Below, piece after piece: positions 46,177 to 62,412 of a DNA stretch of 64,000 nucleotides. The notes beneath the pieces are model-generated. The model had not been told where the DNA came from. It ran no database searches and saw only the letters and a program-made list of their open reading frames with translations. A program made the translations under genes and the position numbers. Origin of the DNA: Pseudomonas sp. 10S4 (GTDB taxonomy: Bacteria; Pseudomonadota; Gammaproteobacteria; Pseudomonadales; Pseudomonadaceae); the NCBI RefSeq assembly GCF_034344865.1, contig NZ_CP133774.1:4340001-4404000 (forward strand), written 5' to 3'. Numbering within the stretch: the stretch's first letter is position 1; the number at the start of each line of letters is the position of its first letter.

Positions 46177-46318
46177 CAGCTCGCTCGCCACAGTTATAGG
46201 CGCGTCTGAAAGACCGCAGCATGTTTATTTGATCATCAAGAGGCCTCTAAAGAGGCCCGCGCTCATTCACTTCGCTCACTGCCAGACACTTCCCATTTCT
46301 TTTGCAGGAGCTTTGAAC

Positions 46319-46966
46319 ATGGTCAATCGTCTTCTCGGCAAATCCCTTCTGGTCTTACTGGCGGCCAGCGCACTCGCACCGCTGGCACAAGCGGCCGATG
46401 CGCCCACGTTGAACACGGGCAGCACCGCCTGGATGATCACCGCGGCGGTGTTGGTGTTGTTCATGTGTTTGCCGGGCCTCGCGTTGTTTTACGGCGGTCT
46501 GGTGCGGGCGAAAAACATGTTGTCGCTGTTTACCCAGTGCTTCGGCGTCGCCGGTCTGGTCGGCATCACGCCAGCGTGCGCGTATGTCGGCGTCGGTGGG
46601 GCGCTGGCCATCGGCCTGTTGTGCGGGGTGTTCTGCTACTTGAGCGTCACCGTGCTGAAACGTCGCTTCGGCTATGACGACAGCCTCGACGTGTTCGGCT
46701 TGCACGGCATCGGTGGGATGATTGGCGCGGTATTGACCGGGGTGCTCTGCGTGCCATCGATGGGCGGATTGGTCGAAGGCGTGACCATGGGCGCTCAGGT
46801 CGTGGCGCAAATCAAGGGCGTGGTGCTGACGACGGTTTACTGCTTCGCCATCAGTTGGGTCATTCTCAAGGTGATCAACGCTGTGATCGGCTTGCGCGCC
46901 GATGAGTCGGTGGAGGAGATGGGGCTGGATCTGGCGGAGCACAACGAGCGTGCCTACAACCATTAA
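46319..46966 (+). CDS. Ammonium transporter (Amt) with the middle half missing
   Basis: A 215-residue Amt-family protein from the ATG at 46319 behind gcaggagc. The signal peptide ends near AQAADAP and the first helices are normal (PGLALFYGGLVRAKNMLSLF). The sequence then jumps from FTQCFGVAGLV to GITPACAYVGVGGALAIGLL, which in full Amt proteins lies about 200 residues later. The C-terminal part (DSLDVFGLHGIGGMIGAVLT) and cytosolic tail are present. The fusion is in frame, so this is an internal deletion rather than a shift. The first few helices and the last helices remain, but the conducting pore and its His pair are incomplete. Nonetheless codon use is normal, and it may be retained as a regulatory or inactive fragment. 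Confidence 0.8.
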   Translation: MVNRLLGKSLLVLLAASALAPLAQAADAPTLNTGSTAWMITAAVLVLFMCLPGLALFYGGLVRAKNMLSLFTQCFGVAGLVGITPACAYVGVGGALAIGLLCGVFCYLSVTVLKRRFGYDDSLDVFGLHGIGGMIGAVLTGVLCVPSMGGLVEGVTMGAQVVAQIKGVVLTTVYCFAISWVILKVINAVIGLRADESVEEMGLDLAEHNERAYNH

Positions 46967-48925: not shown

Positions 48926-49969
48926 TCAGCGAAACGCCGGCACCACTTGTTTGATAAACAGCTCCAGCGATTTTTTCTTCTCGGCATGGGGCAAGCTGTT
49001 ATCGCACCAGAAGCTGAACTCGTCGACCCCCAGTTCCTGGTAATACTTGATGCGCGGAATGATTTCTTCGGCGGTGCCGATCATCGCTGTCTTGTGCAGG
49101 CTCTCCAGTTCGAACTCAGGGCGAGCGGCGAATTTCTCTTCCGGGCTTGGTGCCAGGAAACCGTTGACCGGCACTTCCTTGTTGCCGAACCAGGCGTCGA
49201 AGGTGCGATAGAACTTCGAGATCGCCTTGGCCCCGACTTTCCAGCCTTCAGGATCATCCGCCGCGTGTACGTGGGTGTGGCGCAGCACCATCAGTTGCGG
49301 GCGTGGCACGTCTGGATTGTTGTCCAGCGCAGCCTGGAATTTGTTCTTCAGGTCGAGAACTTCTTCGTCGCCTTTCATCAGCGGCGTGACCATGACGTTG
49401 CAGCCGTTGGCCACCGCGAAGTTGTGCGAGTCCGGGTCGCGGGCGGCGATCCACATTGGCGGGTTGGGCTTCTGGATGGGCTTGGGCACGCTGGTCGAAG
49501 TGGGAAATTTCCAGATATCGCCATCGTGGGCGTAATCACCTTGCCACAGGGCGCGAATCACCGGGACCATCTCCCGCAGCGCCTGGCCACCGGACGAAGC
49601 AGGCATGCCGCCGGCCATACGATCAAATTCAACCTGGTAAGCGCCGCGGGCCAGGCCGACTTCCATGCGGCCGTTGCTGATCACGTCCAGCAGCGCGCAT
49701 TCGCCAGCGACCCGGATCGGGTGCCAGAACGGCGCGATGATGGTGCCAGCGCCGAGGTGAATGGTGGTGGTCTTGGCGGCCAGGTAGGCCAGCAGCGGCA
49801 TCGGGCTCGGCGAGATGGTGTATTCCATGGCGTGGTGTTCGCCGATCCAGACCGTGCTGAAGCCACCGGCCTCGGCCATCAGGGTCAGTTCGGTCAAGTC
49901 TTCGAACAACTGACGATGGCTGATGCTGTCGTCCCACCGTTCCATGTGCACGAACAGGGAAAATTTCAT
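48926..49969 (-). CDS. Luciferase-like flavin-dependent monooxygenase (LLM)
   Basis: A 347-residue (beta/alpha)8 monooxygenase that uses reduced FMN supplied by a reductase. Landmarks: FVHMERWDDSISHRQLFEDL, GFSTVWIGEHHAMEYTISPS, GAGTIIAPFWHPIRVAGECA and GLARGAYQVEFDRMAGG. The family includes RutA, which opens the uracil ring by C-N cleavage, and bacterial luciferase. It shares a promoter with the flavin reductase gene just upstream (36-base gap), whose operator matches a GntR-type palindrome. Members of this type open or oxygenate small cyclic compounds; the true substrate is unknown. Confidence 0.88.
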   Translation of the reverse strand: MKFSLFVHMERWDDSISHRQLFEDLTELTLMAEAGGFSTVWIGEHHAMEYTISPSPMPLLAYLAAKTTTIHLGAGTIIAPFWHPIRVAGECALLDVISNGRMEVGLARGAYQVEFDRMAGGMPASSGGQALREMVPVIRALWQGDYAHDGDIWKFPTSTSVPKPIQKPNPPMWIAARDPDSHNFAVANGCNVMVTPLMKGDEEVLDLKNKFQAALDNNPDVPRPQLMVLRHTHVHAADDPEGWKVGAKAISKFYRTFDAWFGNKEVPVNGFLAPSPEEKFAARPEFELESLHKTAMIGTAEEIIPRIKYYQELGVDEFSFWCDNSLPHAEKKKSLELFIKQVVPAFR

Positions 49970-50005
49970 GACGCTTACCTCGGATTTTTATTTTTGACGG
50001 TCGGT

Positions 50006-50490
50006 TCAAGCCAGGACGGGCAGGGCGCCCATTTTGCCGTGGCAGTAAACCAGTGGGCCGGTGGTGCGTTGCGGCACAATCAGGTTCTTCACCGCGCCAA
50101 CCATAATCGCGTGATCGCCACCTTCGTATTCGCGCCACAACTCGCATTCGATAATCGCCGTGGCATTACTCAGCAGCGGGTTGCCCAGTTCACTCAAGGT
50201 CCACTCGATGCCTTGCGCCTTGTCCTTGCCTTTACGGGCAAAGGCATAGGCTTCGTTTTGCTGGCCACCGGAAAGCACATGGATGGCAAAGCGTTTGTTC
50301 TTGATCAGGATCGGATAGGAATCGGAACTGTAGTTGGGGCAGAACAACACCAGGGCCGGGTCCATGGACAGCGAGCTGAACGCGCTGGCGGTGAGGCCGA
50401 CGATCTGCCCGTCGTCATCCAGCGTGTGATCACAGTCACGCCGGACGGGAACGAACCCATGACTTGTTTGTAGATGGCGGCATCGATCAT
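50006..50490 (-). pseudogene. Flavin reductase (RutF/HpaC-like), one-base frameshift
   Basis: An FMN reductase partner of the LLM enzyme. The start is MIDAAIYKQVMGSFPSGVTV. After VIT the frame shifts and resumes as SMDPALVLFCPNYSSDSYPI. The site is near 50424-50426, where one base is missing (atcacacg for the expected atcaccacg). Repaired length is about 161. The intact paralogue at 58631-59116 has the same layout (FPSGVTVVTTLDPDG), so the repair is well guided. The two are close copies within one regulon. Confidence 0.82.
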
Positions 50491-50540
50491 TGGACGGTCC
50501 TCGGACGGTGTACGACGGATTATTATGCTTGTTGGTCTGA

Positions 50541-50550
50541 TGGTATACCG
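50541..50550. promoter_or_regulatory. GntR-type operator A (TGGTATACCG)
   Basis: atggtataccgtaatac around 50540-50556, 51 bases upstream of the flavin reductase start. It matches the palindrome family TGGTATACCA seen at three other promoters in this cluster, with one change in the right half. Confidence 0.65.
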
Positions 50551-50635
50551 TAATACATCGTTTGCAAGGGCTTTTTGAAGTGAGGCGATAGGCGTAACGT
50601 CAGTCAGATAAGCGATAGAAACAGCGATGAATAAC

Positions 50636-50739
50636 CTGTGGCGAGCTTGCTCCCGCTGGGCTGCGAAGCGGCCCCCGCTCTATCTAAAAAGAAGGGGACT
50701 GCTGCGCAGTCCAACGGGAGCAAGCTCCCTCGCCACAGT
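50636..50739. repeat. REPIN-like inverted repeat
   Basis: ctgtggcgagcttgctcccg faces cgggagcaagctccctcgccacag. It fills the gap between the flavin reductase gene and the ABC ATPase gene and probably acts as a boundary between these transcription units. Confidence 0.75.
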
Positions 50740-50759
50740 TTCTAACCGGCGCTTGCAGG

Positions 50760-51918
50760 TCAATGGGCGCCAGCAGCCTTGTTCAAATCGCTTTCGGCCC
50801 ATTGCGTATAAACGCAGGCATCCGCAGTCGCCCAGCGCACTCGCACCGGATCGCCGGCCTTGAGCGGCATGCCCGCGGCGGACAACGCCTTCACAGTCAT
50901 CGAGGTCCCGCCCGAGGTCACCACGCTGCACGTCTGGCTCTCACCGAGAAACAGCACTTCCACAACCTTGGCCGACACTTCGTTCCAGCCGGCGGCCAAC
51001 GGTTCCTGAGTGGCTTGTTCGACGCTCAGTGCCAGGGCTTTTTCCGGGCGGACCATCAGCAGCACATCCTGATCGGTATGCAGGCCGGCAGTCAGGCGAA
51101 TCGATAGTGACTGACCTTCAAAACTGGCTGCCGCATTGCCCTGGGCCTTGAGCTTGAGGAAGTTCGAGTTGCCGAGGAACGAGGCGACAAACGCATTCGG
51201 CGGGTTCTGGTACAGGTCGTAGCCGCTGCCCAAACCGACGATTTTGCCGTGGCTGAAAATCGCAATGCGCTGGGACAGGCGCATGGCTTCTTCCTGATCG
51301 TGGGTCACGTAGACGATGGTGATGCCGAGGCGCCGATGCAGCTGACGCAGCTCATCTTGCAGATCCTCGCGCAGCTTTTTGTCCAGTGCGCCGAGGGGTT
51401 CGTCCATCAGCAGGATGCGCGGTTCGTACACCAGCGCCCGAGCGATCGCCGACGCGCTGTTGCTGGCCGCCGGAGAGTTGGCGAAGGGCGGCGATGGGCG
51501 AACTGTTCCAGTTGCACCAGTTTGAGCATCGCATCGACCCGACGCTCGCGCTCGGCGCTGGCCAATTTGCGAATCGCCAGCGGGAACGCGATGTTGTCGC
51601 GCACCGACAGGTGCGGGAACAGGTCGAATAGCGCTGGAACACCATGCCGATATCACGCTTGTGCGGCGGCACGTTGACCAGCGATTGGCCGCTGACCAGG
51701 ATCTCGCCGCTGCTCGGTGTTTCGAAGCCGGCGAGCATCGACAGGGTGGTGCTTTTGCCGGAGCCGCTGGAGCCGAGGAAGGTCAGGAATTCACCGTCCT
51801 GGATGTCCAGCGAGATGTTGTCCACGGCGGCAAAGTCGCCGTAGTGCTTGTTCAGGTTGCGCAGGCTGACCAGGGTCTTGTTGTTCTGCTGCGCAGGGTC
51901 TTTGATCACGGCACTCAT
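50760..51918 (-). pseudogene. ABC importer ATPase (PotA-like), three indels
   Basis: ATP-binding subunit of a spermidine/putrescine-type importer. It has Walker A LGSSGSGKSTT, signature LSGGQQQR, Walker B ILLMDEP, an H-loop (VYVTHDQEEAM) and a C-terminal TOBE-like domain. It starts MSAVIKDPAQQNNK. Three shifts divide it. One C is lost near 51622-51623 (after MVFQRYST; repaired to TLFPHLSVRDNIAF). One base is gained near 51480-51481 (repaired RRPSQLSGG) and one near 51449-51450 (repaired QRVAIARALV). Repaired length is about 385. It is the last gene of the importer operon. Confidence 0.82.
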
Positions 51919-51935
51919 TACTTACTCCTGGGCGC

Positions 51936-52745
51936 TCAGGCGCTGATTGCATTGCGCCGGCGCAGGGCGGCGGCGATCACCATGACCAGTACCGACAGGC
52001 CGATCAGCAGCGTCGAGGCGACGGCGATCACGGGTGTCAGGTCCTGACGCAGGGTGGTCCACATTTTTACCGGAAGGGTTTGCAGGGTCGGGCTGGCCAT
52101 CATCACGCTCAGCACCACCTCGTCCCACGACACCAGGAAGGCGAACAGCGCACCGGCGACCATGCCCGGACGGATCGCCGGAAAGGTCACCTTGAACACC
52201 GCTTGCAAGCGCGACGCACCGCAGATCACCGCTGCATCCTCGATCGACTGATCGAACAGCTTCAGCGAGTTGATGATCGAGATGATGGTGAACGGCAGAG
52301 CAACAATCACGTGGCTGACGACGAAGGCAAACATCGTCCCGGTGTAACCGAGTTTGAGAAACAACGCGTACACCGCCACCGCGATGATCACCAGCGGCAC
52401 GATCATCGGCAGGGTGAACAAACCGTAGAGCATTTCCCTGCCAGGGAAGCGGCCGCGCACCAGGGCGAAAGCGGTCGGCAGGCCGAGGGCCACGGAGAAA
52501 ATAGTGGTCAGCACCGCGACCTTGAGGCTGGCGAACGCAGCGTTCATCCAGTCGGCGTTAGAGAAAAACTGGCCGTACCATTTCAGCGTCCAGCCCGGCG
52601 GTGGGAACACCAGCCACTGGGAGGAACCGAACGACAGCAGCACGATGAACACAATCGGCAATAGCAGGAACAGCGCGATCAGGCCGGTGGTGAAATACAG
52701 GCCGAACCGCATGCGCCGGCTCATGGCATTGGGGGTCAGGAGCAT
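51936..52745 (-). CDS. ABC importer permease (PotC-like)
   Basis: A 269-residue inner-membrane permease with six predicted helices and the EAA-type loop (EDAAVICGASRLQAVFKVTFP). It belongs to the spermidine/putrescine/Fe-type group II. It lies 6 bases from the partner permease gene. Which compound it carries cannot be told from the sequence alone. Confidence 0.88.
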   Translation of the reverse strand: MLLTPNAMSRRMRFGLYFTTGLIALFLLLPIVFIVLLSFGSSQWLVFPPPGWTLKWYGQFFSNADWMNAAFASLKVAVLTTIFSVALGLPTAFALVRGRFPGREMLYGLFTLPMIVPLVIIAVAVYALFLKLGYTGTMFAFVVSHVIVALPFTIISIINSLKLFDQSIEDAAVICGASRLQAVFKVTFPAIRPGMVAGALFAFLVSWDEVVLSVMMASPTLQTLPVKMWTTLRQDLTPVIAVASTLLIGLSVLVMVIAAALRRRNAISA

Positions 52746-52751
52746 GACGGC

Positions 52752-53681
52752 TTACCTCGCGTTGCTGGCGCCAACCGGGGATTCCGGCTGAAGCTTCAGG
52801 TAGAAGTAGAACAACACCAGCGTGATCACAATCAGCAACGCGGCACCCGCACTGGCCAGGCCCCAGTTAAGGAACGACTGCACCTGCTGGATGATGAACT
52901 CGGGCAGCATCATGTTCTGCGCACCACCGAGCAGCGCCGGGGTGACGTAGTACCCGAGCGACATCACGAACACCATCAAGCCACCGGAGAACAACCCCGG
53001 CCGGCACAGCGGCAGGAACACCCGGAAGAAGTTGGTCCAGGGGCTGGCGCCGCAGATCGAGCCGGCTTGCAGGATCATCGGGTCGATGGCCTGCATGGTC
53101 GCCTGCAACGGCAGGACGATGAACGGGATCATGATGTAGCTCATGCCGATCACCACGCCGGTCAGGTTGTGCACCATTTCCAGCGGCTGATCGATGATGC
53201 CCATGGCCATCAGCGCCTTGTTGATCACCCCGGAGGCTTGCAACAGCACCAGCCACGAATAGGTCCGCGCCAAGAGGCTGGTCCACATCGAGAGCAGCAC
53301 GATGCTGAGGATCCAGCGACCCCAACCGCGCGGCACCAGGGTAATCGCCCAGGCCAGCGGAAAGCCCAGCAGCAGGCTGAACAACGTCACCAGCCCGGCC
53401 ACCGAAAAGGTGTTGAGCAAGACCCGCGCATAAGCCGAGTTGGCGAACAATTGCTGGTAGTTGCCAAGGCCCGGTTCCGGCTCAAGCACACCGCGCAGCA
53501 GCAAACCGATCAACGGCGCCAGAAAGAACAGGCCGAGGAACAGCAGGGCGGGGACCAGATTGCCGGCCCCGCGCCAACGCTGAACCAGCGAAGGGGTTTG
53601 CTTCATCACAGCCGCCTTGCCAGGAGCGCCAACGGCGCTCCCGATCGGAGTGGATGGACGGGACGCGGCCGTCATTTTCAT
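52752..53681 (-). CDS. ABC importer permease (PotB-like)
   Basis: A 309-residue permease started at 53681 (MKMTAASRPSTP), whose ATG overlaps the stop of the binding-protein gene (ATGA). A longer start at 53702 is possible. It has about six helices and the cytoplasmic EAA loop (ICGASPWTNFFRVFLPLCRPG). Confidence 0.87.
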   Translation of the reverse strand: MKMTAASRPSTPIGSAVGAPGKAAVMKQTPSLVQRWRGAGNLVPALLFLGLFFLAPLIGLLLRGVLEPEPGLGNYQQLFANSAYARVLLNTFSVAGLVTLFSLLLGFPLAWAITLVPRGWGRWILSIVLLSMWTSLLARTYSWLVLLQASGVINKALMAMGIIDQPLEMVHNLTGVVIGMSYIMIPFIVLPLQATMQAIDPMILQAGSICGASPWTNFFRVFLPLCRPGLFSGGLMVFVMSLGYYVTPALLGGAQNMMLPEFIIQQVQSFLNWGLASAGAALLIVITLVLFYFYLKLQPESPVGASNAR

Positions 53682-54709
53682 TTGACCAGCCATTCGTTCC
53701 ACCGTGTCGCGATGGCCGAACCGTTTTTGGCCCAGTACGCGAAGTCTAGAGTGATCTGATCCTTAGCGTAGGCAGTCGGCAGGTTCGGGGCCAGTACCGA
53801 GTCCAGGCGCGCGACGCTGTCGACGTTGACCGGGGCATAGGCTGTCAGGTTGGAAAAATCCGCCTGACCCTTGGCGCTGCTGGCGCTGGCCAGAAACTTC
53901 ATGGCCGCCGCTTTGTTTTTCGTGCCTTTAGGGACCACCAGAATGTCGGCCATGACCAGGTTCTGTTTCCAGCTCACGCCGACCGGTGCGCCGTCTTCTT
54001 GCAGGGCGTGAATTCGACCGTTCCAGAACTGACCCATGCTGACTTCACCGGAGGCGAGCAACTGCTGCGACTGCGCGCCGCCGCCCCACCAGACAATGTC
54101 TTTCTTGATGGTGTCGAGTTTCTTGAAGGCGCGGTCCAGGTCCAGCGGGTAGAGCTTGTCGGCAGGCACGCCATCGGCGAGCAAGGCCAGTTCAAGCACG
54201 CCAGGACTCGGCCATTTGTACAGGGCGCGTTTGCCGGGGTAGGTTTTGGTGTCGAACAGGGCGGACCAGTCCTGGGGTTTGGCGGCGCCGAGCTTGCCTT
54301 CGTTGTAGCCGAGGACGAAGGAGAAGAAGAACGAACCGACGCCGTAATCGGAGACAAAGCGCGGGTCGATCTTGTCGCGCTGGATCGCGGTGAAGTCCAG
54401 GGGTTCGAGCAAGCCTTCGGCGGCGGCGCGCAGGGCGAAATCGGCCTCGACGTCGACCACATCCCACTGCACGTTGCCGCTTTCGACCATGGCTTTGAGT
54501 TTGCCGTAGTCGGTCGGGCCGTCCTGGACGACAGTGATGCCGCTGGCCTTGCTGAACGGATCGGCCCAGGCCTGCTTCTGCGCATCCTGGGTACTGCCGC
54601 CCCAGCTGACGAAGTTGACGCTTTCAGCCGCGATTGCCGCGTGGCTGACTGTGGCCAATAAACCTGCAAAAAGAATTGCAGTTGCACCTTTGTTCAACAC
54701 CATTTTCAC
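53678..54709 (-). CDS. ABC importer periplasmic binding protein (PotD-like)
   Basis: A 343-residue protein with a signal peptide ending near AAIAAES. It belongs to the PotD/AfuA-like extracellular binding group (NFVSWGGSTQDAQKQAWADP). Conserved acid residues of the polyamine site (D and E residues in WDVVDVEADFALRAAAEG) are partly present. It is the first gene of the importer operon. Operator B lies about 150 bases upstream. Confidence 0.88.
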   Translation of the reverse strand: MKMVLNKGATAILFAGLLATVSHAAIAAESVNFVSWGGSTQDAQKQAWADPFSKASGITVVQDGPTDYGKLKAMVESGNVQWDVVDVEADFALRAAAEGLLEPLDFTAIQRDKIDPRFVSDYGVGSFFFSFVLGYNEGKLGAAKPQDWSALFDTKTYPGKRALYKWPSPGVLELALLADGVPADKLYPLDLDRAFKKLDTIKKDIVWWGGGAQSQQLLASGEVSMGQFWNGRIHALQEDGAPVGVSWKQNLVMADILVVPKGTKNKAAAMKFLASASSAKGQADFSNLTAYAPVNVDSVARLDSVLAPNLPTAYAKDQITLDFAYWAKNGSAIATRWNEWLVK

Positions 54710-54869
54710 GCCCTCATTTGTTGTGTTTTTGAGCGGGTTGTTGATGCCCGCCTATCGGGAGCAGTAGGTCCATCGGGGCCTTAAAGGCGACCGTGCCAAG
54801 GGCTTTTGTTTGTGCTGTCCCTGGCGGGCGCACTTGGCAAATTTGTCCGGCCTATGGAATATCATATTA

Positions 54870-54879
54870 TGGTATTCCA
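54870..54879. promoter_or_regulatory. GntR-type operator B (TGGTATTCCA)
   Basis: It lies in the importer promoter and belongs to the same palindrome family as operators A, C and D, with one base changed (TGGTATTCCA). A second half-matching copy, TGGAATATCA, lies at 54855-54864. The 54710-55112 gap otherwise holds the REPIN listed next. Confidence 0.55.
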
Positions 54880-54987
54880 AACTTTGTGCAAGCACTTTGC
54901 CTTACCGGCTATCAGGCAGAAGTGGGTTTTTTTGGTCGGGTTAACTCAAATATTGGCTGGTTAAGAGATGGAGCGAACAATGAATTA

Positions 54988-55081
54988 CCTGTGGCGAGGG
55001 AGCTTGCTCCCGCTGGGCTGCGCAGCGGCCCCAACAATGGGACTGCTGCGCAGTCCAACGGGAGCAAGCTCCCTCGCCACA
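54988..55081. repeat. REPIN-like inverted repeat
   Basis: cctgtggcgagggagcttgc faces gcaagctccctcgccacat, around gctgcgcagcgg and actgctgcgcagt. It lies between the ABC importer operon and the ribBA gene. Confidence 0.78.
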
Positions 55082-55112
55082 TAAGCTCATTAACACCATC
55101 AAAAATCTGGAT

Positions 55113-56222
55113 TCACTCGGTAAACGGGATGCTCTCAACCACTTCCAGGTCGTAACCAGTCAAACCGGCGTACTTCAATGGCGGGCCCAAGTGACGCAGC
55201 TTGCCCACGCCAAGGTCTTGCAGAATTTGTGCCCCGGTGCCTACTTCAGAATAGATGCGCGACTGTGAGCGGCTGAACTGCCGAGGCGGCTGGGTCAGTT
55301 GCGGCACCCGCTCCAGCAGCGCTTGCGACGACTCGTGGTTGGCCAGCACCACCACCACGCCGCGACCTTCTTCGGCCACGCGCTGCAACGCTGCCCACAG
55401 CGTCCAGTTCGACGGTCCGCTGTACTGCGCGCCCACCAGATCGCGCAGCGGATCGATCACATGCACGCGCACCAACGTCGGTTCATCCCGGCGCACATCG
55501 CCCATGACCATCGCCATGTGCACGCCGCCCTCGATTCGGTCTTCAAAGGTGATCAGCCGGAATACGCCATGCACCGTCGGCAGCTCCCGTTCGCCGATGC
55601 GCACCACGGTGTGTTCGGTGCTGAGGCGGTAGTGAATCAGGTCGGCGATGGTGCCGATCTTGAGCCCGTGCTGGCGCGCGAACACTTCCAGATCCGGGCG
55701 CCGGGCCATGGTGCCGTCATCGTTCATCACTTCAACGATCACCGAGGCTGGTGTGAGGCCGGCCAGGCGCGCCAGGTCGCAACCGGCTTCGGTGTGCCCG
55801 GCACGGGTCAGCACGCCACCTTCCTTGGCCCGCAACGGGAAGATATGACCTGGTTGCACAATGTCGGCGGGACCGGCGTCGGAGGCGACGGCGGCTGCGA
55901 CTGTACGCGCGCGGTCGGCAGCGGAGATGCCGGTGGTCACGCCGATGGCGGCCTCGATAGAGACCGTGAACGCCGTGCTGAACACGCTGGCGTTGGTCGG
56001 CACCATTTGCTCCAGGCCCAGGCGCTGACAGTGTTCATCGGTCAACGTCAGGCAGATCAAACCACGGGCCTCGCGGGCCATAAAGCTGATGGCTTCGGCG
56101 GTGCAACAATCGGCGGCGATCAGCAGGTCGCCTTCGTTTTCGCGGTCCTCGTCATCGACCAGGATCACCATTTTGCCTTGGCGATAATCTTCGATGATTT
56201 CTTCGATGCTGTTGAAGGCCAT
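55113..56222 (-). CDS. ribBA: DHBP synthase fused to degenerate GTP cyclohydrolase II (RibBA type)
   Basis: A 369-residue protein started at 56222 ([20 protein letters not shown]). The N-terminal 3,4-dihydroxy-2-butanone-4-phosphate synthase has [19 protein letters not shown] and [14 protein letters not shown] (metal and substrate residues), making a riboflavin precursor from ribulose-5-phosphate. The C-terminal part (from about 210) has GTP cyclohydrolase II fold but no Cys zinc site, so it is probably inactive (RibBX type). Its place inside a flavin-using catabolic regulon suggests it supplies extra flavin. Confidence 0.87.
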
Positions 56223-56256
56223 GCTGGGATTCTCGATGATTGATGGATACGTAATG

Positions 56257-56266
56257 TGGTATACCA
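56257..56266. promoter_or_regulatory. GntR-type operator C (TGGTATACCA)
   Basis: A perfect 10-base palindrome between ribBA (start 56222) and the divergent DUF1330 gene (start 56294). It is the cleanest copy and would control both. Confidence 0.72.
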
Positions 56267-56293
56267 TAATACAAAATAAACCGAGAGGTCACT

Positions 56294-56590
56294 ATGAAGG
56301 CGTACTGGATTGCTCACGTGGATGTCACCGACCCCGATCAATACAGCCACTACACCCAGCGCGCGCCAGCGGCGTTCGCCTTGTACGGCGGGCGAATCCT
56401 GGCGAGGGGCGGGCGCAGCGAGGCGATGGAAGGTCGGCAGACGCCGCAGCGCAGCGTGGTGATTGAGTTCGACTCTTACGAGCAGGCGCTCGCCTGCTAC
56501 CACTCCGAGCAATATCAAGAGGCGAAGCGGCACCGCGCGGGTGCGGCGTTGGCGCAGGTGATCATCGTCGAGGGCGTGGCGCCGGCCTGA
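56294..56590 (+). CDS. DUF1330-family protein
   Basis: A 98-residue protein (MKAYWIAHVDVTDPDQYSHY) of the DUF1330 ferredoxin-like fold. Landmarks are GGRILARGGRSEAMEGRQT, PQRSVVIEFDSYEQALACYH. Its role is unknown; members occur in aromatic and terpene catabolic clusters. It has operator C directly in front and is the only plus-strand gene of the regulon. Confidence 0.82.
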   Translation: MKAYWIAHVDVTDPDQYSHYTQRAPAAFALYGGRILARGGRSEAMEGRQTPQRSVVIEFDSYEQALACYHSEQYQEAKRHRAGAALAQVIIVEGVAPA

Positions 56591-56605
56591 CAAACGCCAC
56601 ATAAC

Positions 56606-56676
56606 TTGTAGGAGCGAGGCGTGCCCGCGAAGGCGATTTCAAGGACGCCATCGCGGGCAAGCCTCGCTCCTACAAA
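56606..56676. repeat. Short REPIN variant
   Basis: ttgtaggagcgaggcgtgcc faces ggcaagcctcgctcctacaa with a 30-base centre. It lies between the DUF1330 and Nudix genes. Confidence 0.75.
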
Positions 56677-56703
56677 GCATGGCGCACGACACTGATCACA
56701 TCG

Positions 56704-57267
56704 TCAGCGGATAAAGTGAATCCTGCCGCTGTCGTCGTTGCCGATATAGATGCCATAGACCCCGGCCTGGCGTTCCTCGATGTAGCGTTCAAGGATCTGC
56801 CGGATTGCCGGGTAGTAGATGCTTTCCCAAGGAATGTCCTCGGGCGCGAAGAATTTGTAGTCCAGGGTTTCCGGGCCGTACTGGCCGGTGATCTCCAGCG
56901 CGATGGCGCGGAAGATGATGTACACCTCGCTGATCTTCGGCACGCTGAAGATCGAGTAGGGTGAGAGGATTTCCGCGCGAACGCCGCTCTCTTCCCAGAC
57001 CTCGCGCAACGCTGCCTGCTCGGTGGTCTCGCCACCTTCCATGAAGCCCGCCGGCAAGGTCCAGGTGCCCGGACGCGGCGGGATCGCGCGTTGGCACAGC
57101 AGGTACTTGCCGTCCTGCTCGATGATGCAGCCGGCGATGATTTTCGGATTGATGTAGTGGATGTAGCCGCAGGCGCGGCACATCAGGCGCTCGTGCGTAT
57201 CGCCCGGCGGCAGTTGGTGACCGAGGTCACTGCCGCCACACTTTGGGCAAAAGCTCGGGCTGAACAT
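56704..57267 (-). CDS. Nudix hydrolase with zinc ribbon
   Basis: A 187-residue protein. A zinc ribbon (CPKCGG and CRACGY) is followed by a Nudix box GFMEGGETTEQAALREVWEE with catalytic Glu residues. It resembles NudC-like ADP-ribose/NADH or FAD pyrophosphatases. It begins 2 bases from the GntR stop, so it is in the same operon. A role in flavin nucleotide recycling would fit but is only inferred. Confidence 0.85.
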   Translation of the reverse strand: MFSPSFCPKCGGSDLGHQLPPGDTHERLMCRACGYIHYINPKIIAGCIIEQDGKYLLCQRAIPPRPGTWTLPAGFMEGGETTEQAALREVWEESGVRAEILSPYSIFSVPKISEVYIIFRAIALEITGQYGPETLDYKFFAPEDIPWESIYYPAIRQILERYIEERQAGVYGIYIGNDDSGRIHFIR

Positions 57268-57269
57268 GT

Positions 57270-58022
57270 TCAGCGACCTATGCGCGGTTCTTTGAGCGCG
57301 ATAGGGGCGGTGATTTCAGGCATTTCACCGGTCTCTTCCTGCTTGCTCTTGAGGTAATCGAGGGCAACCTTGGCGGCGGAGCGCACGTGATCGACGCAAG
57401 CCTGGTGGGCGACCAGCGGATCACCGCTCTTGATCGCCTCGACCATGCGTTCCATTTCCTGGTTGCTGGCGCCGCGACGGTTTTCCTGGGACACCGAGGT
57501 CGCCCGCAGGTAGCTGATGCGCGCCTGCAACTGGCGCAGTTGCGTGGCCGCGACATGGTTGCCGGAGCCTTCGAGCAAGACGTCGTAGAAACCTTGAACC
57601 GAATCGATCACCTGTTGCAGTTCGCCGTCCTTGAGGGCCTCGCGGTTAACCTCGAGGGCTTTTTCCAACGCCTTGATGTCCTTGGCCTTGGCGCGCAGGG
57701 TGAACAGCTGGACGATCAGGCCTTCGAGCACGCAACGCAGCTCATAGATATCGCCGGCGTCGGACAGGGTAATGATCGCAACCCGTGGGCCCTTGGCATC
57801 GGCGAACTCCACCAGGCCTTCGGATTCCAGGTGACGCAAGGCTTCACGCACCGATGTGCGGCTAACGCCCAGGCGATCGCACAGATCGCGTTCGACCAGA
57901 CGGTCACCCGGCAGGAGCTGGAAGTTCATGATGGCGCTTCGCAGTTTATCCAGCACGATTTCGCGCAGGGTAATGGGGTTGCGATTGACCTTGAAGCTGT
58001 CGTCGAGTGGCAGGCGTTTCAT
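57270..58022 (-). CDS. GntR-family (FCD subgroup) regulator of the catabolic cluster
   Basis: A 250-residue repressor. Winged HTH at residues about 15-80 (LVERDLCDRLGVSRTSVREALRHLESEGLVEF) and an all-helical FCD domain (about 95-230) with late His residues. FCD-type GntR proteins bind TGGTnnACCA palindromes, as found at four promoters in this region. It is encoded inside the longest operon, so it is probably autoregulated. The effector is unknown but likely an intermediate of the pathway. Confidence 0.9.
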   Translation of the reverse strand: MKRLPLDDSFKVNRNPITLREIVLDKLRSAIMNFQLLPGDRLVERDLCDRLGVSRTSVREALRHLESEGLVEFADAKGPRVAIITLSDAGDIYELRCVLEGLIVQLFTLRAKAKDIKALEKALEVNREALKDGELQQVIDSVQGFYDVLLEGSGNHVAATQLRQLQARISYLRATSVSQENRRGASNQEMERMVEAIKSGDPLVAHQACVDHVRSAAKVALDYLKSKQEETGEMPEITAPIALKEPRIGR

Positions 58023-58108
58023 GGGGTCCGCTCTGAGTGTGGCTGTCCATGCAAAAGAGTACTTCGATCCAGGATCATCCGTGCTCGGTCAGATCAAACA
58101 GCCAAGGG

Positions 58109-58498
58109 TTAACTTGAGGCCTCGGCATCGGCTTCGGCGAAGGCTTCACGGGCAAGCCGGAAACTGTCCACGGCAGCGGGCACTCCGCAATATATGCCGA
58201 CCTGAAGCAGAATTTCGCGTATTTGCTCACGACTCAGGCCGTTACGCAAGGCGCCGCGCACATGCAGCTTGAGTTCGTGCGGCCGGTTGAGGGCCGAGAT
58301 CATGGCCAGGTTTATCATGCTGCGTTCTTTAAGCGACAAACCCTCCCGGCCCCAGACATGGCCCCAGCAGTATTCGGTGACCATCTCCTGCAACGGTCGG
58401 GTGAAGTCGTCGGCGTTGTCGAGGGAGCGCTGCACATAGGCTTCGCCCAGCACTTGAGTGCGGATCTTCAAGCCTTTTTCGTACTTCTCGTTGTTCAT
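58109..58498 (-). CDS. Carboxymuconolactone decarboxylase-family protein
   Basis: A 129-residue helical protein of the CMD/AhpD group (MVTEYCWGHVWGREGLSLKE, RSMINLAMISALNRPHELKL, GLSREQIREILLQVGIYCGV). The single Cys region (YCWGHVW, not CxxC) matches CMD-type enzymes rather than AhpD. A gamma-carboxymuconolactone or similar lactone reaction is possible. A REPIN separates it from the flavin reductase gene upstream. Confidence 0.82.
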   Translation of the reverse strand: MNNEKYEKGLKIRTQVLGEAYVQRSLDNADDFTRPLQEMVTEYCWGHVWGREGLSLKERSMINLAMISALNRPHELKLHVRGALRNGLSREQIREILLQVGIYCGVPAAVDSFRLAREAFAEADAEASS

Positions 58499-58521
58499 CT
58501 CTATGCCTCACATGCAATCCC

Positions 58522-58612
58522 TGTGGGAGCGGGCTTGCTCGCGAAAGCGGTGTGTCAGTCAATGTGGATGTCGACTGACACGACCCCTTCGCGAGCAAGC
58601 CCGCTCCCACAA
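58522..58612. repeat. REPIN inside the operon
   Basis: tgtgggagcgggcttgctcg faces cgagcaagcccgctcccaca, with an internal tgtcagtc...gactgaca stem. It splits the operon between the flavin reductase and CMD genes. Confidence 0.8.
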
Positions 58613-58630
58613 GGGGTTTGTGTAAACCCG

Positions 58631-59116
58631 TCAGCCCAGCGTGGGCAGCGGGCCCAGCTTGCCTTTGTGATAGATCATCGGCGTTACCGGTTGTTCGGGC
58701 AGGATCAGGTTCTTCACCGCGCCGACGATGATCGCGTGGTCACCGCCGTCGTATTCGCGCCACAGTTCGCACTCGATGATCGCCGTGGCCTTGCTCAACA
58801 ACGGGTTGCCCAGCGCGCTCAAATGCCAGTCGATGCCATTGGCCTTGTCCTTGCCTTTCCCGGCAAAGGCGTAGGCCTCGGCGGTCTGGTCGGCGGACAG
58901 CAAGTGAATCGCAAACTGCTTGCTGTCGCGCAGGATTGGGTACGTATCTGAAGCATAGTTGGGACAGAACAACACCAGCGCCGGGTCGATCGACAGCGCA
59001 CTGAAGGCGCTGGCAGTAATGCCGACGATGCCGCCGTCCGGGTCCAGGGTGGTGACCACCGTGACCCCGGACGGGAAGGAGCTCATGACTTCTTTATAAA
59101 TGCCGGGTTCGATCAT
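58631..59116 (-). CDS. Flavin reductase (intact paralogue)
   Basis: A 161-residue flavin reductase-like protein (MIEPGIYKEVMSSFPSGVTV). It has ASAFSALSIDPALVLFCPNY and ELWREYDGGDHAIIVGAVKN. It is a close copy of the frameshifted gene at 50006-50490 in the same regulon. It would feed reduced FMN to the LLM monooxygenase. Confidence 0.88.
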   Translation of the reverse strand: MIEPGIYKEVMSSFPSGVTVVTTLDPDGGIVGITASAFSALSIDPALVLFCPNYASDTYPILRDSKQFAIHLLSADQTAEAYAFAGKGKDKANGIDWHLSALGNPLLSKATAIIECELWREYDGGDHAIIVGAVKNLILPEQPVTPMIYHKGKLGPLPTLG

Positions 59117-59127
59117 TTCGCAGACTC

Positions 59128-60607
59128 CTAGCGCATCACAAACGGGTCAGGCATCGGCGCCTGGGAGAGGTTGATCCACACCGTTTTCAGCTCGGTGTAG
59201 GCCAGCACCGAATCGATGCCGCTTTCGCGTCCATAGCCGCTGTTCTTGAACCCGCCAATTGGCGCCATGGCCGACACGGCTCGGTAGGTGTTGACCCAGA
59301 TGATCCCCGAGCGCACATCCCGAGCCAGGCGATGGGCGCGGCCCAGGTCGCGGGTCCAGATGCCGGCGGCGAGGCCGAACTGCGAGTCGTTGGCAATTGC
59401 CAGCGCTTCGGCTTCGTCCTTGAAGCGAATCACCGACGCTACCGGGCCGAAGACTTCTTCCTGCATGATCTTCATCGAATTGCTGTCGCATTCGAACAGC
59501 GTCGGCTCATAGAACCAGCCGTCACCCAGATTCTGCGGACGCTTGCCGCCGAGCTTCAGGCGCGCGCCTTCGGCAATCGCGTCGGCGACCAAACCTTCGA
59601 CCACCGCCAATTGCTGCGCCGTGGCCATCGGGCCCATTTCGCTGGCGTCATCCTGTGGGTTGCCGATGCGGATACGCTTGGCACGTTCCACCAGACGCTC
59701 GACGAATTCGTCGTAGATTTCGTCTTGAACCAGCAGTCGCGAACCGGACACACAGCTCTGGCCCGAGGCGGCATAGATTCCGGCGATGGCGCGTTGATGG
59801 CCTTGTCGAGGTCGGCGTCGGCGAAGACGATGAACGGCGCGTTCCCGCCCAGCTCCAGCGACAGCTTGGCGAAGTTTTCGGCGCTGCTGCGCACCACATG
59901 CCGCGCGGTGGCAGCGCCGCCGGTGAAGGCGATCTTGCGAATCAGCGGATGGCGGGTCAGGGCCGCGCCAGTGCTCGGGCCGTACCCGGTGACCACGTTG
60001 ACCACACCCGGCGGAATGCCGGCTTCGAGGGCCAGTCGCGCCAGTTCGAGGATGGTTGCCGAAGCGTGTTCGGACGGCTTGATCACGATGGTGTTGCCCG
60101 CCGCCAGGGCTGGCGCGAGTTTGATCGCGGTCAGGTACAGCGGGCTGTTCCAGGGAATAATCGCCGCGACCACGCCCATGGCTTCGTGCACGGTGTAGGC
60201 AAAAAGGTCGGGCTTGTCGAGGGGCAGGGTGCCGCCCTCAAGCTTGTCGGCGAGGCCGGCGGTGTAGTGGAAAACTCTGGCAGGTAGCCAACCTGGCCAC
60301 GGGTTTCGCGAATCAACTTGCCGTTGTCGCGGCTTTCCAGTTGGGCCAGTTGCTCCTTGTTCTCGGCGATCAAGTCGCCCAGACGCCGCAGCAGTTTGCC
60401 GCGAGCAGTGGCGGTCAAGCTGCGCCATGCCGGGCCGTCGAAGGCAGTTTGCGCCGCTTGCACGGCGCGCTCGACGTCGGCCTCATCCGCATCGGGCAGT
60501 TCGGCCCAAGGCTGGGCCAGCGCCGGGTTCAGGCTTTCAAAAGTCTTGCCGGACAGGGCATCGACCCATTCACCGCCGATGCACATCTGGAAGCGTGCGA
60601 GTGTCAT
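59128..60607 (-). pseudogene. Aldehyde dehydrogenase, two one-base frameshifts
   Basis: A typical ALDH of about 493 residues after repair. The start is MTLARFQMCIGGEWVDALSG and the end NLSQAPMPDPFVMR. The Asn (IIPWNSPLYL), Glu (LELGGNAPF) and Cys (ASGQSCVSGSR) are all present. Breaks: an A-run 60271-60274 (four, needs five; repaired YLPEFFHYTAGLAD) and a missing base at about 59790-59793 (repaired AINGAIAGIYAASG). It probably oxidises the aldehyde from ring opening. Its start overlaps the hydrolase stop by four bases. Confidence 0.86.
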
Positions 60608-61452
60608 GCAACGATCCCCTTTATAGGTTTTTGTTGGGCGTGCGCAGTGTCGAGAAACTCCAGCAACAACTGGTTGACCAGGCGCGGCGACTCTACCGGC
60701 ATCATATGCCGTTGCTCGGCGAGTACGGCAACTCGCGCGCCGGGAATACGCTCGGCCAGTTGCTCGGCCATTTGCGGCGTCGAGCCCGGATCGAGTTCAC
60801 CGGTCGCGACCAGCGTTGGCGCCTGAATGCTGCCGAGGTCTTCGGCTCGGTACATGTCCTGGGTGGCGAACAATTCGTAAGTGGTCAGGTAACCCTGCGG
60901 ATCATTGCCGGCCAAGGTCTGGCGCAGGGCGGCGATTTGCGCCGGGTTGGCCGCTTGGTATTCACGACTAAACCAACGCGACAACGCGGCCTCGGCGTTG
61001 GCATCCGGCCCGTGTTCGGCGGCCTGAGCAGTGCGTTCGATGACGCCGGCGCGTTGTTCGGCGCTGCGATTGAACACGCTGTTGAGCACCACCAACCCTT
61101 GCAGGCGTTGCGGGTAGTGCAAGGCAAACGCCCGCGCCACCAGCCCGCCCATGGAGAAACCGATCACCGTTGCCTGGGGCAAGTGCAGATGATCGAGTAG
61201 TTCCAGCAACTGGTCGGCATAACCGAGCAGGCAGGTGCCACTTTGTGGTCGAGGACTGGCGCCGTGGCCGAGCATGTCGTAGGCGATCACGCGGTATTTT
61301 GTGGCCAGGCCAACGACCTGGCCGCCCCACATTTCTTTGTTCAGGCCCACGCCGTGGATCAAGACCACGGGCTGGCCTTGGCCGGTCGCCAGGTAACTGG
61401 TGCCAGCCGGGGTGCTTTCAGCGGTGAGCCGAATCATGGAGCGCTCCTGCAT
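60604..61452 (-). CDS. Alpha/beta-fold hydrolase
   Basis: A 282-residue hydrolase. HGxG oxyanion site VLIHGVGLNKEMWG and nucleophile elbow GFSMGGLVARAFAL (Ser). The catalytic His is in AEQRHMMPVESPRLV near the end. Start at 61452 or 61437 is possible. In analogy with RutD, it could hydrolyse the ring-opened amide or an ester intermediate. Confidence 0.87.
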   Translation of the reverse strand: MQERSMIRLTAESTPAGTSYLATGQGQPVVLIHGVGLNKEMWGGQVVGLATKYRVIAYDMLGHGASPRPQSGTCLLGYADQLLELLDHLHLPQATVIGFSMGGLVARAFALHYPQRLQGLVVLNSVFNRSAEQRAGVIERTAQAAEHGPDANAEAALSRWFSREYQAANPAQIAALRQTLAGNDPQGYLTTYELFATQDMYRAEDLGSIQAPTLVATGELDPGSTPQMAEQLAERIPGARVAVLAEQRHMMPVESPRLVNQLLLEFLDTAHAQQKPIKGIVA

Positions 61453-61481
61453 GCTTTTTTATTGGTGTTGCACCGACGCAA

Positions 61482-62072
61482 TTACTGGGCTTTTTCAGCG
61501 GCCAGTTCTTCCAGGTCGATGTAACGGTTGCCGATGCGAGGGTGCAGGCGGCCGCCATCGGCGCAACCCAGCACCACGACGATTTCGTCGGCACGCGGCG
61601 CGTCTTCGATCTTCATTTCCAGGGTGATGTAGTGCGAACGCAAGCCTTCGTCGTCCTTGTGCATCATCGGAATCTGGATCGACGTGCCCGGGCCACCGCG
61701 CTTGTTGGTGAAACTCAGGTAGCTCTTGGCTTTGACTGCTTCACGGTAGTGATTGCCGAAGCGCAGGGTGTGGATCACCGCAGAGGCGTGTTCGATCTCG
61801 CCGTCCGCACCGACTACAGCGGCTTTGCCATAGGCTTCAATCTTGTCTGCACCGCCGATGATCTTCACCAGGCGTTCCACCATCAGCGCGCCGAGGTCGG
61901 AGCAGTTGGCGCGGATTTCCGGCTTCAAGTCTTCGACAAAGCCACGGCCCAGCCACGGGTTTTTCATCACCACCGCCAGGCCAACCATGGTCACCGGCGT
62001 GTCGGTGGCCTTGCCGCCTTCGATAAAGGTTTCTTCGACGTAGCTGACGATCTTGCGGATTTCGAAACTCAT
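61482..62072 (-). CDS. DUF1185 ('amino acid synthesis') family protein
   Basis: A 196-residue protein started at 62072 (MSFEIRKIVSYVEETFIEGG) with a GGAG site; longer starts lie in the operator region. Landmarks: VVMKNPWLGRGFVEDLKPEI, GKAAVVGADGEIEHASAVIH and RADEIVVVLGCADGGRLHPR. Enzymatic role unknown. It is the first gene of the seven-gene operon, and operator D is 42 bases upstream. Confidence 0.85.
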   Translation of the reverse strand: MSFEIRKIVSYVEETFIEGGKATDTPVTMVGLAVVMKNPWLGRGFVEDLKPEIRANCSDLGALMVERLVKIIGGADKIEAYGKAAVVGADGEIEHASAVIHTLRFGNHYREAVKAKSYLSFTNKRGGPGTSIQIPMMHKDDEGLRSHYITLEMKIEDAPRADEIVVVLGCADGGRLHPRIGNRYIDLEELAAEKAQ

Positions 62073-62113
62073 GGGCGGCTCCATATTCAGGGTAAGAGTG
62101 TCTGTGCGTATGA

Positions 62114-62123
62114 TGGTATACCA
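62114..62123. promoter_or_regulatory. GntR-type operator D (TGGTATACCA)
   Basis: A perfect palindrome identical to operator C, flanked by AT-rich bases (gatggtataccataatac). It lies before the DUF1185 gene, the head of the catabolic operon. Confidence 0.72.
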
Positions 62124-62228
62124 TAATACTAGTTGCGCAAGACCCTGAAAGGAGTTTGTGTTGGGAGGAGGCGACCAGCGGCGGGGAGAGTTTTGCTGCG
62201 TGCTGATTCGGGAACGAAGTACAAAACC

Positions 62229-62317
62229 TGTGGGAGCGAGCCTGCTCGCGAAGGCGACGGCGCATTCAACATTTATGTGCCAGACACACCGCTTTCGCGA
62301 GCAAGCTCGCTCCCACA
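62229..62317. repeat. REPIN
   Basis: tgtgggagcgagcctgctcg faces cgagcaagctcgctcccaca. It separates the catabolic operon from the EAL-domain fragment. Confidence 0.8.
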
Positions 62318-62412
62318 AGGGCTCTGTGGTTAGCCAAGCTAAACACTGAAGTTGGCCGGCATTCAGGACGCCTGCCGATACCGCCCCGGGCGTCTATCCA
62401 AAACATCAACTG

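Follow-up and report, generated by a model that had tools for sequence, protein, structure and literature searches.

Four palindromes of one family lie among the operons of a gene cluster in Pseudomonas sp. 10S4, and the question raised by this locus is whether they are the operators of a single regulon and which compound such a regulon would serve. Throughout the text, "the window" means the whole stretch of DNA that was analysed (64,000 nucleotides, numbered from its first letter). The analysis points strongly to a repressor-controlled, trigonelline-type (tgn-type) catabolic regulon for an N-methylpyridinium-carboxylate betaine, with the plant betaine trigonelline as the first choice. The regulon, the operator, its presence at operons that are scattered and the occurrence of a homologous gene set elsewhere were computed here, and we infer that the regulator represses and does not activate, what its inducer is and which betaine is the actual substrate. 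The pathway is of an already known kind; a widespread betaine-degrading system thereby gains a regulator and an operator that is conserved from gammaproteobacteria to rhizobia, and the supply of flavin is tied to a flavin-consuming pathway.

The operator and its proposed regulator

All four palindromes reported in the initial annotation are present in the window sequence. They are located before the operon of flavin reductase 1 and the LLM oxygenase (50535..50556, minus strand, GTCTGATGGTATACCGTAATAC; core TGGTATACCG at 50541-50550), before the ABC importer (54864..54885, minus strand, ATATTATGGTATTCCAAACTTT; core TGGTATTCCA at 54870-54879), between ribBA and the DUF1330 gene (56251..56272, no strand assigned; core at 56257-56266) and before the DUF1185 operon (62108..62129, minus strand, GTATGATGGTATACCATAATAC; core at 62114-62123), the last two having the perfect core TGGTATACCA. 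The same family is thus found at four promoters, as had been proposed, but the shared operator extends further than was claimed and is a 22-bp palindrome near GTATTATGGTATACCATAATAC. In an alignment of the regions before DUF1185 from 30 Pseudomonas loci, the 22 columns with the highest conservation (0.952 versus a median of 0.564) read GTATTATGGTATACCATCAGAC.

When one mismatch to the palindrome was allowed, these four sites were the only matches in the window; shuffled windows contained 0.44 matches on average, and none of 100 shuffles reached four. The whole 7.27-Mb genome contains no perfect site other than those at 56257 and 62114. A genome-wide search with a 17-mer of the family (up to three mismatches) recovered the four known places and three others; a wider regulon in this genome was rejected, as the search added only these three places, each with three mismatches. 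Chance origin of the palindromes was ruled out by the window shuffles, the genome counts, control palindromes and the distribution of a 13-mer. A promoter-consensus scan of the region gave three promoter-like matches versus 3.7 expected, and a search for the operator word in open-licence PMC papers yielded, among the matches listed, only virus, animal, fungus and plant subjects.

The GntR-FCD regulator encoded at 57270..58022 (minus strand) carries a GntR helix-turn-helix (62.3 bits) and an FCD domain (83.7 bits), both above the Pfam cut-offs. It is the proposed repressor of the four sites, and its co-occurrence with them makes it a candidate binder of the TGGTATACCA operators. The initial annotation had named related clusters as the place to look for the sites, and they are indeed present there: upstream of DUF1185, a site with at most one mismatch was detected in 104 of the 106 locus rows that have a GntR gene within 6 kb, and in 7 of the 39 rows that have none within this distance (several rows can come from one genome), while same-letter control palindromes averaged at most 0.21 regions in any set of DUF1185 rows. 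The regulator was found in 169 of 298 sampled genomes of the genus. The 13-mer TTATGGTATACCA occurs in all 31 sampled regulator-positive Pseudomonas genomes (169 known) versus none of the 20 regulator-negative ones (129 known), and its reversed pattern, used as a control, in none of the 51; the window-type LLM has the same distribution (31/31 versus 0/20). The 30 Pseudomonas loci contain 56 perfect sites, whereas 29 control palindromes occur there 0.28 times on average. In this genus a site precedes flavin reductase 1 or the LLM gene in 26 of 30 LLM loci, linked or unlinked, the binding-protein (SBP) gene in 29 of 29 rows and ribBA in 30 of 30.

Some of the genes also occur in other neighbourhoods, which had been put forward as a possible objection, and the site travels along with them. 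Scattered operons keep the operator: eight remote copies were located at distances of 19 kb to 1.05 Mb to the regulator gene. Each of the eight separates DUF1330 from ribBA, and the importer adjoins with a site of its own. The four sites are a true regulon, and the idea of one regulon with one operator and a GntR-FCD regulator is borne out by the co-occurrence of site and regulator. No site within one mismatch was found before DUF1185 in an Arthrobacter plasmid cluster, although its LLM is 78% identical, or in the L102 locus; these two cases were counted against the tgn-type reading.

Gene content and the proposed pathway

The genes named in the initial annotation are present, with two corrections concerning the RibA half of "RibBA" and three broken reading frames. 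The FMN-dependent LLM (bacterial-luciferase-like) oxygenase (48926..49969; PF00296, 187.9 bits) is accompanied by flavin reductase 1 (50006..50491), whose frame is broken near 50425 as judged from open frames and relatives, and by flavin reductase 2 (58631..59116; PF01613), whose frame is intact; all three lie on the minus strand, and the PF00296-PF01613 pair typical of a tgn cluster is thus available in the window with reductase 2 intact and reductase 1 broken. The genome contains two DHBP-synthase genes. According to sequence and domain models, one of them, "RibBA" (55113..56222, minus strand), encodes a RibB-type enzyme with a RibA-like half that contains no cysteine, and it is probably a RibB whose RibA-like domain is dead. 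The importer comprises, on the minus strand, an ATPase (50760..51918; frame broken at 51451, 51481 and 51624 by comparison with relatives), co-conserved PotC-like (51936..52745) and PotB-like (52752..53702) permeases, and a periplasmic binding protein (53678..54709).

The DUF1185/AA_synth protein of the TgnF family (61482..62072; PF06684, 236 bits; PDB 2qtp, 3byq), an alpha/beta hydrolase in a TgnD-like position (60604..61452; domain models) and an aldehyde dehydrogenase (ALDH) in a TgnC-like position (59128..60607; frame broken at 59792 and 60274 by comparison with relatives) share one minus-strand operon, a run of genes that is also kept in relatives. A stand-alone Nudix protein with a zinc ribbon (56704..57267, minus strand; domain models) is weakly related to the C-terminal portion of reductases in other clusters: among 75 named contig loci, 62 have a match to the Nudix query (22-43% identity) that follows the reductase match in frame. 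In the reductase of Psychrobacter, Pfam did not call a Nudix domain. The DUF1330 gene (56294..56590; PF07045, 125.7 bits) is on the plus strand. The PcaC-like CMD protein (58109..58498, minus strand), with a TIGR02425 score of 153.9 bits against a cut-off of 155.7, is possibly the decarboxylase of the hydrolysis product; counterparts with 73-76% identity were found in all six regions compared, one from A. baumannii (L221) and five from a genus presumed to be Acinetobacter. The window cluster lacks an SSADH (TgnE) gene. In 7 of the 30 Pseudomonas loci (L049, L050, L052, L053, L061, L063 and L064) the cluster includes a second ALDH gene; the one in L049 reaches 733.8 bits with the SSADH model, whose cut-off is 646.35, and the A. 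baumannii cluster likewise has an SSADH above the cut-off.

The uncompensated indels in flavin reductase 1, the ATPase and the ALDH represent either sequencing error or gene decay. The ATPase (384 aa) is whole in L044 and L045, the ALDH in the same two loci (493 aa) and in L046 and L049, and flavin reductase 1 (161 aa) in L045. Within the stretches compared, nothing outside the cluster aligned in the same-species genome G216, and four stretches outside the cluster aligned in G100. The three broken genes and the missing SSADH were also counted against the tgn-type reading.

In the pathway that we propose, the ABC importer would take up the betaine by means of its aromatic-box binding protein, the flavin reductases would supply FMNH2 to the LLM oxygenase, with extra FMN from the RibB copy, and the oxygenase would cleave the betaine ring. 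The ring-opened aldehyde would then be oxidised by the ALDH, and the hydrolase would free methylamine, formate and CO2, leaving succinate semialdehyde; the CMD protein may aid the decarboxylation. SSADH, found in the cluster of several relatives, would yield succinate with the help of the DUF1185 protein. The GntR-FCD protein would occupy the 22-bp operators before each operon and be released by the betaine or an early intermediate.

Substrate and alternative readings

The window LLM is 45-51% identical to the Acinetobacter, S. meliloti, Psychrobacter and Ruegeria enzymes (clade A), which are 63-72% identical among themselves. In a midpoint-rooted tree, read for its topology only, it joins the Arthrobacter enzyme in a sister clade (clade B) of the Acinetobacter and rhizobial ones; since it falls outside the TgnB clade, it was treated as working like TgnB and not as TgnB. 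This distance means that substrate or product may differ, and it was counted against the tgn-type reading. It is therefore conceivable, though rather unlikely, that the same regulon uses its clade-B oxygenase to open a different ring (homarine, N-methylisonicotinate or another small N-heterocycle) and reuses the downstream genes. Besides the deep split in the tree, the hydrolase favours this alternative, being mostly 28-39% identical to those of clade A versus 55-65% for DUF1185. However, the importer is 57-68% identical to that of the clade-A clusters and has the same pocket, DUF1330 and CMD also occur in Acinetobacter, and no second LLM at E<=1e-50 was found in the 31 regulator-positive Pseudomonas genomes. 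Excerpts of PMC8269262 also argue that homarine is an unlikely TgnA/B substrate, which would, if anything, leave homarine to another enzyme.

The initial annotation had suggested import and ring opening as in the Rut pathway, in which a two-component flavin oxygenase opens the ring. Flavin-dependent ring opening, aldehyde oxidation and hydrolysis are supported, and Rut is a functional parallel only. LLM, flavin reductase and alpha/beta hydrolase are also Rut parts, but the window proteins score far below the RutF (63.8 versus 254.75 bits) and RutD (89 versus 238.5 bits) cut-offs, on which grounds a Rut-like pathway was rejected. The partner genes differ as well: DUF1185, ALDH, SSADH and betaine-type transporters are not known to be Rut parts, and the gene set fits tgn-type clusters. 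A Rut-like pathway for a pyrimidine or another amide ring is accordingly very improbable.

The periplasmic binding protein belongs to the Pf622/Atu4243 family, the scaffold of a fluorescent sensor of the neurotransmitter GABA (PDB 6dgv, 9d57, 4eq7). It is identical to the binding-protein part of 6dgv (Pf622, iGABASnFR) at 300 of 317 aligned pairs (94.6%), and all eight GABA-pocket residues are kept, the pocket having five aromatic side chains. In excerpts of the respective papers Atu4243 is described as highly GABA-specific (PMC3907764), Pf622 as interacting with GABA only (PMC6819510) and iGABASnFR2 as crystallised with GABA (PMC12999171); the first two reports were counted against the betaine reading, and all three favour a genuine GABA importer captured by the cluster, GABA and trigonelline both ending in succinate semialdehyde. 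We consider such a capture doubtful. With Atu4243 as the sole query, 12 of the 13 genomes found have a family member beside LLM and flavin reductase (for the gene in Agrobacterium itself, nothing at or above 90% identity was found in plasmid records, nor above 87% in the phylum and order samples). The window genes read include no aminotransferase, which GABA use would require, the five aromatics suit a flat cationic ring, and the sensor Kd of 9 uM, even after a mutation that raised affinity 10-fold, is weak for a cognate ligand, although the GFP insertion may weaken binding too. The genomic setting predicts a betaine as the natural ligand, with GABA probably a mimic. With moderate confidence we propose that the Pf622/iGABASnFR binding protein and Atu4243 evolved as receptors of trigonelline or a closely related pyridinium betaine, GABA being a flexible mimic that fits the arginine-aspartate-aromatic pocket, and that atu4243 would be derepressed when this betaine, or the product of its ring opening, acts on a similar repressor. 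If so, the GABA sensor should respond to trigonelline, a common dietary compound.

Comparison with trigonelline clusters

The trigonelline cluster tgnA-F of Acinetobacter baylyi ADP1 and the chemical steps of the pathway were reportedly described by Perchat et al. in 2018. The enzyme set of the window is that of this degradation, so the pathway cannot be called undescribed, as had been thought probable; its connection with TgnA-F is drawn from the names of the families, from gene content and from the A. baumannii counterpart. In excerpts of the cited papers, TgnA/TgnB is the trigonelline oxygenase of A. baylyi (PMC8269262), TgnB a luciferase-like protein (PMC11354265) and TgnF a DUF1185 protein assisting TgnE (PMC7913881). 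The same gene families and operator were found in A. baumannii and another six Moraxellaceae regions, as well as in rhizobia; on pSymA of S. meliloti they lie between noeB and nifT. The Psychrobacter region L105 has two BCCT betaine-type transporters and a cytosine/purine-type permease in place of an ABC importer, and these transporter types were counted as support for a betaine substrate.

The A. baumannii cluster shares with the window the DUF1185, alpha/beta hydrolase, flavin reductase, LLM, ALDH, CMD, DUF1330 and GntR genes and the operator, and also has SSADH. Compared with Acinetobacter tgn, the Pseudomonas cluster has a sister-clade LLM in its own operon, a second reductase, a RibB copy and the stand-alone Nudix gene; an ABC importer replaces the cytosine/purine-type permease, and the window has no SSADH. 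According to excerpts, S. meliloti fails to grow on trigonelline when pSymA is missing (PMC4207669), and the trigonelline genes are located in the symbiotic region of pSym (title of Goldmann et al. 1991, cited in PMC12489286). The pSymA locus (L222) has DUF1185, hydrolase, reductase, LLM, ALDH and importer genes adjoining nif/nod genes, a GntR gene and a one-mismatch site, as in the window; unlike there, the enzyme and importer genes are consecutive on one strand, the LLM is 51% identical to that of the window, and ribB, DUF1330, CMD and Nudix have no match.

Operator sites and the extent of the regulon

The initial annotation described four palindromes of the TGGTATACCA family before four operons around the gene of a GntR-FCD regulator; all four were found at its coordinates, and the case for them proved stronger than stated. 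A search for TGGTATACCA with at most one mismatch gave exactly four matches in the window, a number reached by none of 100 shuffles of the window, and the two perfect sites are the sole perfect ones in the 7.27-Mb genome. A genome-wide search for a longer 17-mer, allowing up to three mismatches, recovered the four window sites plus three further places. The operator is a 22-bp palindrome: GTATGATGGTATACCATAATAC is located at 62108-62129, and partial versions can be read in the flanks of the other three window sites. In an alignment of the 180 bases upstream of the DUF1185 gene from 30 Pseudomonas loci, the 22 best-conserved columns are the operator (0.952, against a median of 0.564). The best-conserved stretch upstream of the gene for the importer's binding protein is also its site (0.948, median 0.747, n = 21). 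For ribBA (n = 22), the best-conserved upstream stretch (0.921, median 0.791) falls in the coding start of the divergent DUF1330 gene and not on the site, the core of which is invariant. GC-rich palindromic repeats that resemble Pseudomonas REP elements lie between the operons (50640-50745, 54985-55083, 56606-56680, 58518-58615 and 62212-62318), and relatives have matching repeats in several positions.

The regulator is present in 169 of the 298 sampled genomes of the genus (E ≤ 1e-60), and 30 regulator-positive regions were compared with the window. Perfect sites number 56 in these 30 regions, where 29 control palindromes built from the same half-site letters gave a mean of 0.28 and a maximum of 2. 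A site was located at most 400 bases upstream of DUF1185 (30/30), ribBA (30/30) and the binding-protein gene (29/29). The last two counts include eight remote loci, and only rows with a usable gene start were scored. The 13-mer TTATGGTATACCA, counted on both strands so that a symmetric site counts twice, had two to four matches in each of 31 regulator-positive genomes (those of the 169 whose regions were compared) and none in 20 regulator-negative genomes listed among 129, and the reversed pattern was found in 0 of the 51. An LLM (luciferase-like FMN-dependent oxygenase) gene of the window type was identified in all 31 positive genomes (84-100% identity) and in none of the 20 negative ones, of which one (G044) has a 42% identical relative.

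The initial annotation also proposed that its reading would fall if individual genes were found in different neighbourhoods. Scattered operons were indeed found, yet the site goes along with them. In eight genomes, a copy of the 13-mer lies apart from the regulator and LLM genes, at a distance of 19 kb to 1.05 Mb from the former. Each of the eight copies stands between the DUF1330 and ribBA genes; next comes the importer, which has a site of its own. Thirty LLM loci were obtained from the 31 genomes (G145 gave none), and the site precedes the LLM gene or that of its reductase in 26, including six in which 46-883 kb separate the LLM gene from that of the regulator (G213, G057, G149, G094, G018 and G015). 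Of the other four (G268, G125, G160 and G205), three have no site and one has a match only inside the ATPase gene. Because the reductase in these four seemingly starts directly behind the ABC ATPase gene (the frames of one region, L046, were examined), the reductase gene may be transcribed from the importer's promoter.

The initial annotation advised looking for the site in homologous clusters. Across all sets of loci, it was found (at most one mismatch) upstream of DUF1185 in 104 of 106 regions whose GntR gene lies no more than 6 kb away, and in 7 of 39 that lack such a gene. Rows are loci, a few from the same genome; lacking a usable start of DUF1185, 4 of 80 named contig loci and 3 of 12 Atu4243-led ones were not counted. 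The two GntR-linked exceptions are an Arthrobacter plasmid (L220) and L102; contigs labelled as Roseobacter relatives mostly have neither regulator nor site. In L077, L080 and L081, more distant DUF1185 genes (34-41%) occur as tandem pairs with neither LLM nor GntR matches in the vicinity, so the family apparently has another use there.

The importer's binding protein

The window's binding protein matches PDB entries 6dgv and 9d57 (the GABA sensor iGABASnFR, based on Pf622 of P. fluorescens) and 4eq7, presumably Atu4243; compared with the binding-protein part of 6dgv, 300 of 317 aligned pairs are equal, engineered changes included. The eight residues that an excerpt on iGABASnFR2 gives for the GABA site (W9, T13, F100, F102(Y), W202, R205, D228 and Y264; PMC12999171) are all kept in the window protein and in 4eq7 (Y at 102). 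They are likewise kept in 80 of 80 rows of at least 55% identity (F or Y at 102; rows are loci, some from one genome), and just 91 of 314 positions show the window's residue without exception in the 57 rows of 55-80% identity. Several pocket positions differ in the four rows below 55%.

Atu4243 as the sole query detected 5 of 249 genomes (E limit 1e-60) and 10 of 179 (1e-120), 13 of them distinct. Twelve, the window's included, have LLM and flavin-reductase matches in the same 20-kb region, and these are all the genomes at 59% identity or more; DUF1185, hydrolase and ALDH genes are likewise nearby in 11 of the 12. The 20-kb region of G1363, 39% identical, has no such LLM/reductase neighbourhood. 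Among the best 25 loci listed, the binding proteins are 80-87% identical to Atu4243 and all alphaproteobacterial.

In the portions of two reviews available to us, Atu4243 is called highly specific for GABA (PMC3907764) and Pf622 is described as interacting with GABA only (PMC6819510). According to the former, the atu4232 product fully represses atu4243 and the relief of this repression is unexplained, as would be expected of a repressor that awaits a betaine. The Kd of iGABASnFR is given as 9 µM (excerpt of PMC6747460), a value measured after a mutation that raised affinity tenfold (excerpt of PMC12999171). Such affinity seems weak for a cognate ligand, and the GFP insertion may contribute. 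A flat cationic acid should fit well in an aromatic box that also has an arginine and an aspartate. Nipecotic acid and arecaidine, ring analogues of GABA, are known GABA-uptake ligands. Our hypothesis is that trigonelline is the natural ligand of the binding protein. The chief interest lies in the betaine setting of a protein family whose members are described, in the excerpts available, just as GABA receptors.

Integrity of the pathway genes

Uncompensated indels were detected in reductase 1 (50425), the ATPase (51451, 51481 and 51624) and ALDH (59792 and 60274) of this strain; the ATPase and ALDH were scored against the same-species genome G216, and reductase 1 against G100 and G268, in all of which the frames are whole. 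The indels may reflect sequencing error or decay; if real, the strain cannot run the pathway as annotated. An ammonium-transporter-like ORF at 46046-46966, read from its translation, seemingly lacks the middle of the protein.

Comparison with trigonelline-type clusters

The reference pathway is trigonelline degradation by tgnA-F of Acinetobacter baylyi ADP1, which according to Perchat et al. (2018) reportedly proceeds by C5-C6 cleavage, oxidation and hydrolysis to methylamine, formate, CO2 and succinate semialdehyde. In the excerpts available, TgnA/TgnB is the ring-opening oxygenase (PMC8269262), TgnB is a luciferase-like protein (PMC11354265), and the DUF1185 protein TgnF stimulates the succinate-semialdehyde step of TgnE (a paper on coumarin degradation, PMC7913881). 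An A. baumannii region (L221) has the window's gene families in a different order: DUF1330, GntR, site, DUF1185, hydrolase, flavin reductase, LLM, ALDH, site, permease, an ORF without a Pfam match, transposase, SSADH and CMD. Its 4.09-Mb record (NZ_CP104448.1), labelled a plasmid in PLSDB, is probably a chromosome, to judge from its size. Five further regions resemble it and were taken as Acinetobacter because their LLMs group with that of A. baumannii (four of five in the tree). The PcaC-like CMD protein, 73-76% identical in A. baumannii and these five, might decarboxylate the hydrolysis product.

On pSymA of S. meliloti (L222), DUF1185, hydrolase, reductase, LLM, ALDH and NIPSNAP genes and an importer of the window's kind are located between noeB (with an IS21 pair) and nifT. 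The trigonelline genes of S. meliloti reportedly map to the symbiotic region of pSym (title of Goldmann et al.). Without pSymA, S. meliloti does not grow on trigonelline, as stated in an excerpt of PMC4207669. The Psychrobacter region (L105) has no match to the ABC importer; it encodes two BCCT betaine-type transporters and a cytosine/purine-type permease. The tgn gene set, the pSymA growth data and these betaine-type transporters point to a pyridinium betaine as the substrate.

The midpoint-rooted LLM tree splits in two, with the L074 and L079 enzymes outside both clades. Clade A comprises the enzymes of Acinetobacter, S. meliloti, Psychrobacter and Ruegeria, which share 63-72% identity with each other, and clade B those of Pseudomonas, others of its order and the Arthrobacter plasmid. 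Since the window LLM is only 45-51% identical to the four named clade-A enzymes, it is a putative TgnB-like oxygenase of a clade distinct from that of TgnB. A cluster of this type on plasmid pDCT5 of the actinobacterium Arthrobacter dokdonellae (L220, 5342-16068) points to transfer between phyla; its LLM is 78% identical to the window's, and it also has two DUF1185 genes, a tautomerase gene and one for riboflavin kinase.

Compared with tgn, the Pseudomonas clusters have an extra flavin reductase, a RibB copy (one of two DHBP-synthase genes in the genome) and a separate Nudix gene. The RibA half of the window's "RibBA" (55113-56222) scores 37 bits against a model cut-off of 205.85 and is cysteine-free, so probably just the DHBP-synthase half is functional. 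With its riboflavin kinase gene, the Arthrobacter cluster is a second example of one that includes a gene for flavin supply. A Nudix-protein match follows the reductase match in frame in 62 of 75 named contig loci (22-43% identity), and both parts share one 303-residue ORF in Psychrobacter (7900-8811 of L105), for which Pfam calls the reductase domain only. The C-terminal part of this ORF, like that of reductases of other clusters, is weakly Nudix-like and ends in a similar GxYGxYxG...SGxxH stretch. The initial annotation of an undescribed flavin-dependent ring-opening regulon was thus partly right: the regulon is real, but its gene families and operator match trigonelline-type clusters, so that it is of a described kind, set apart by a separate clade of the oxygenase and an additional gene for flavin supply.
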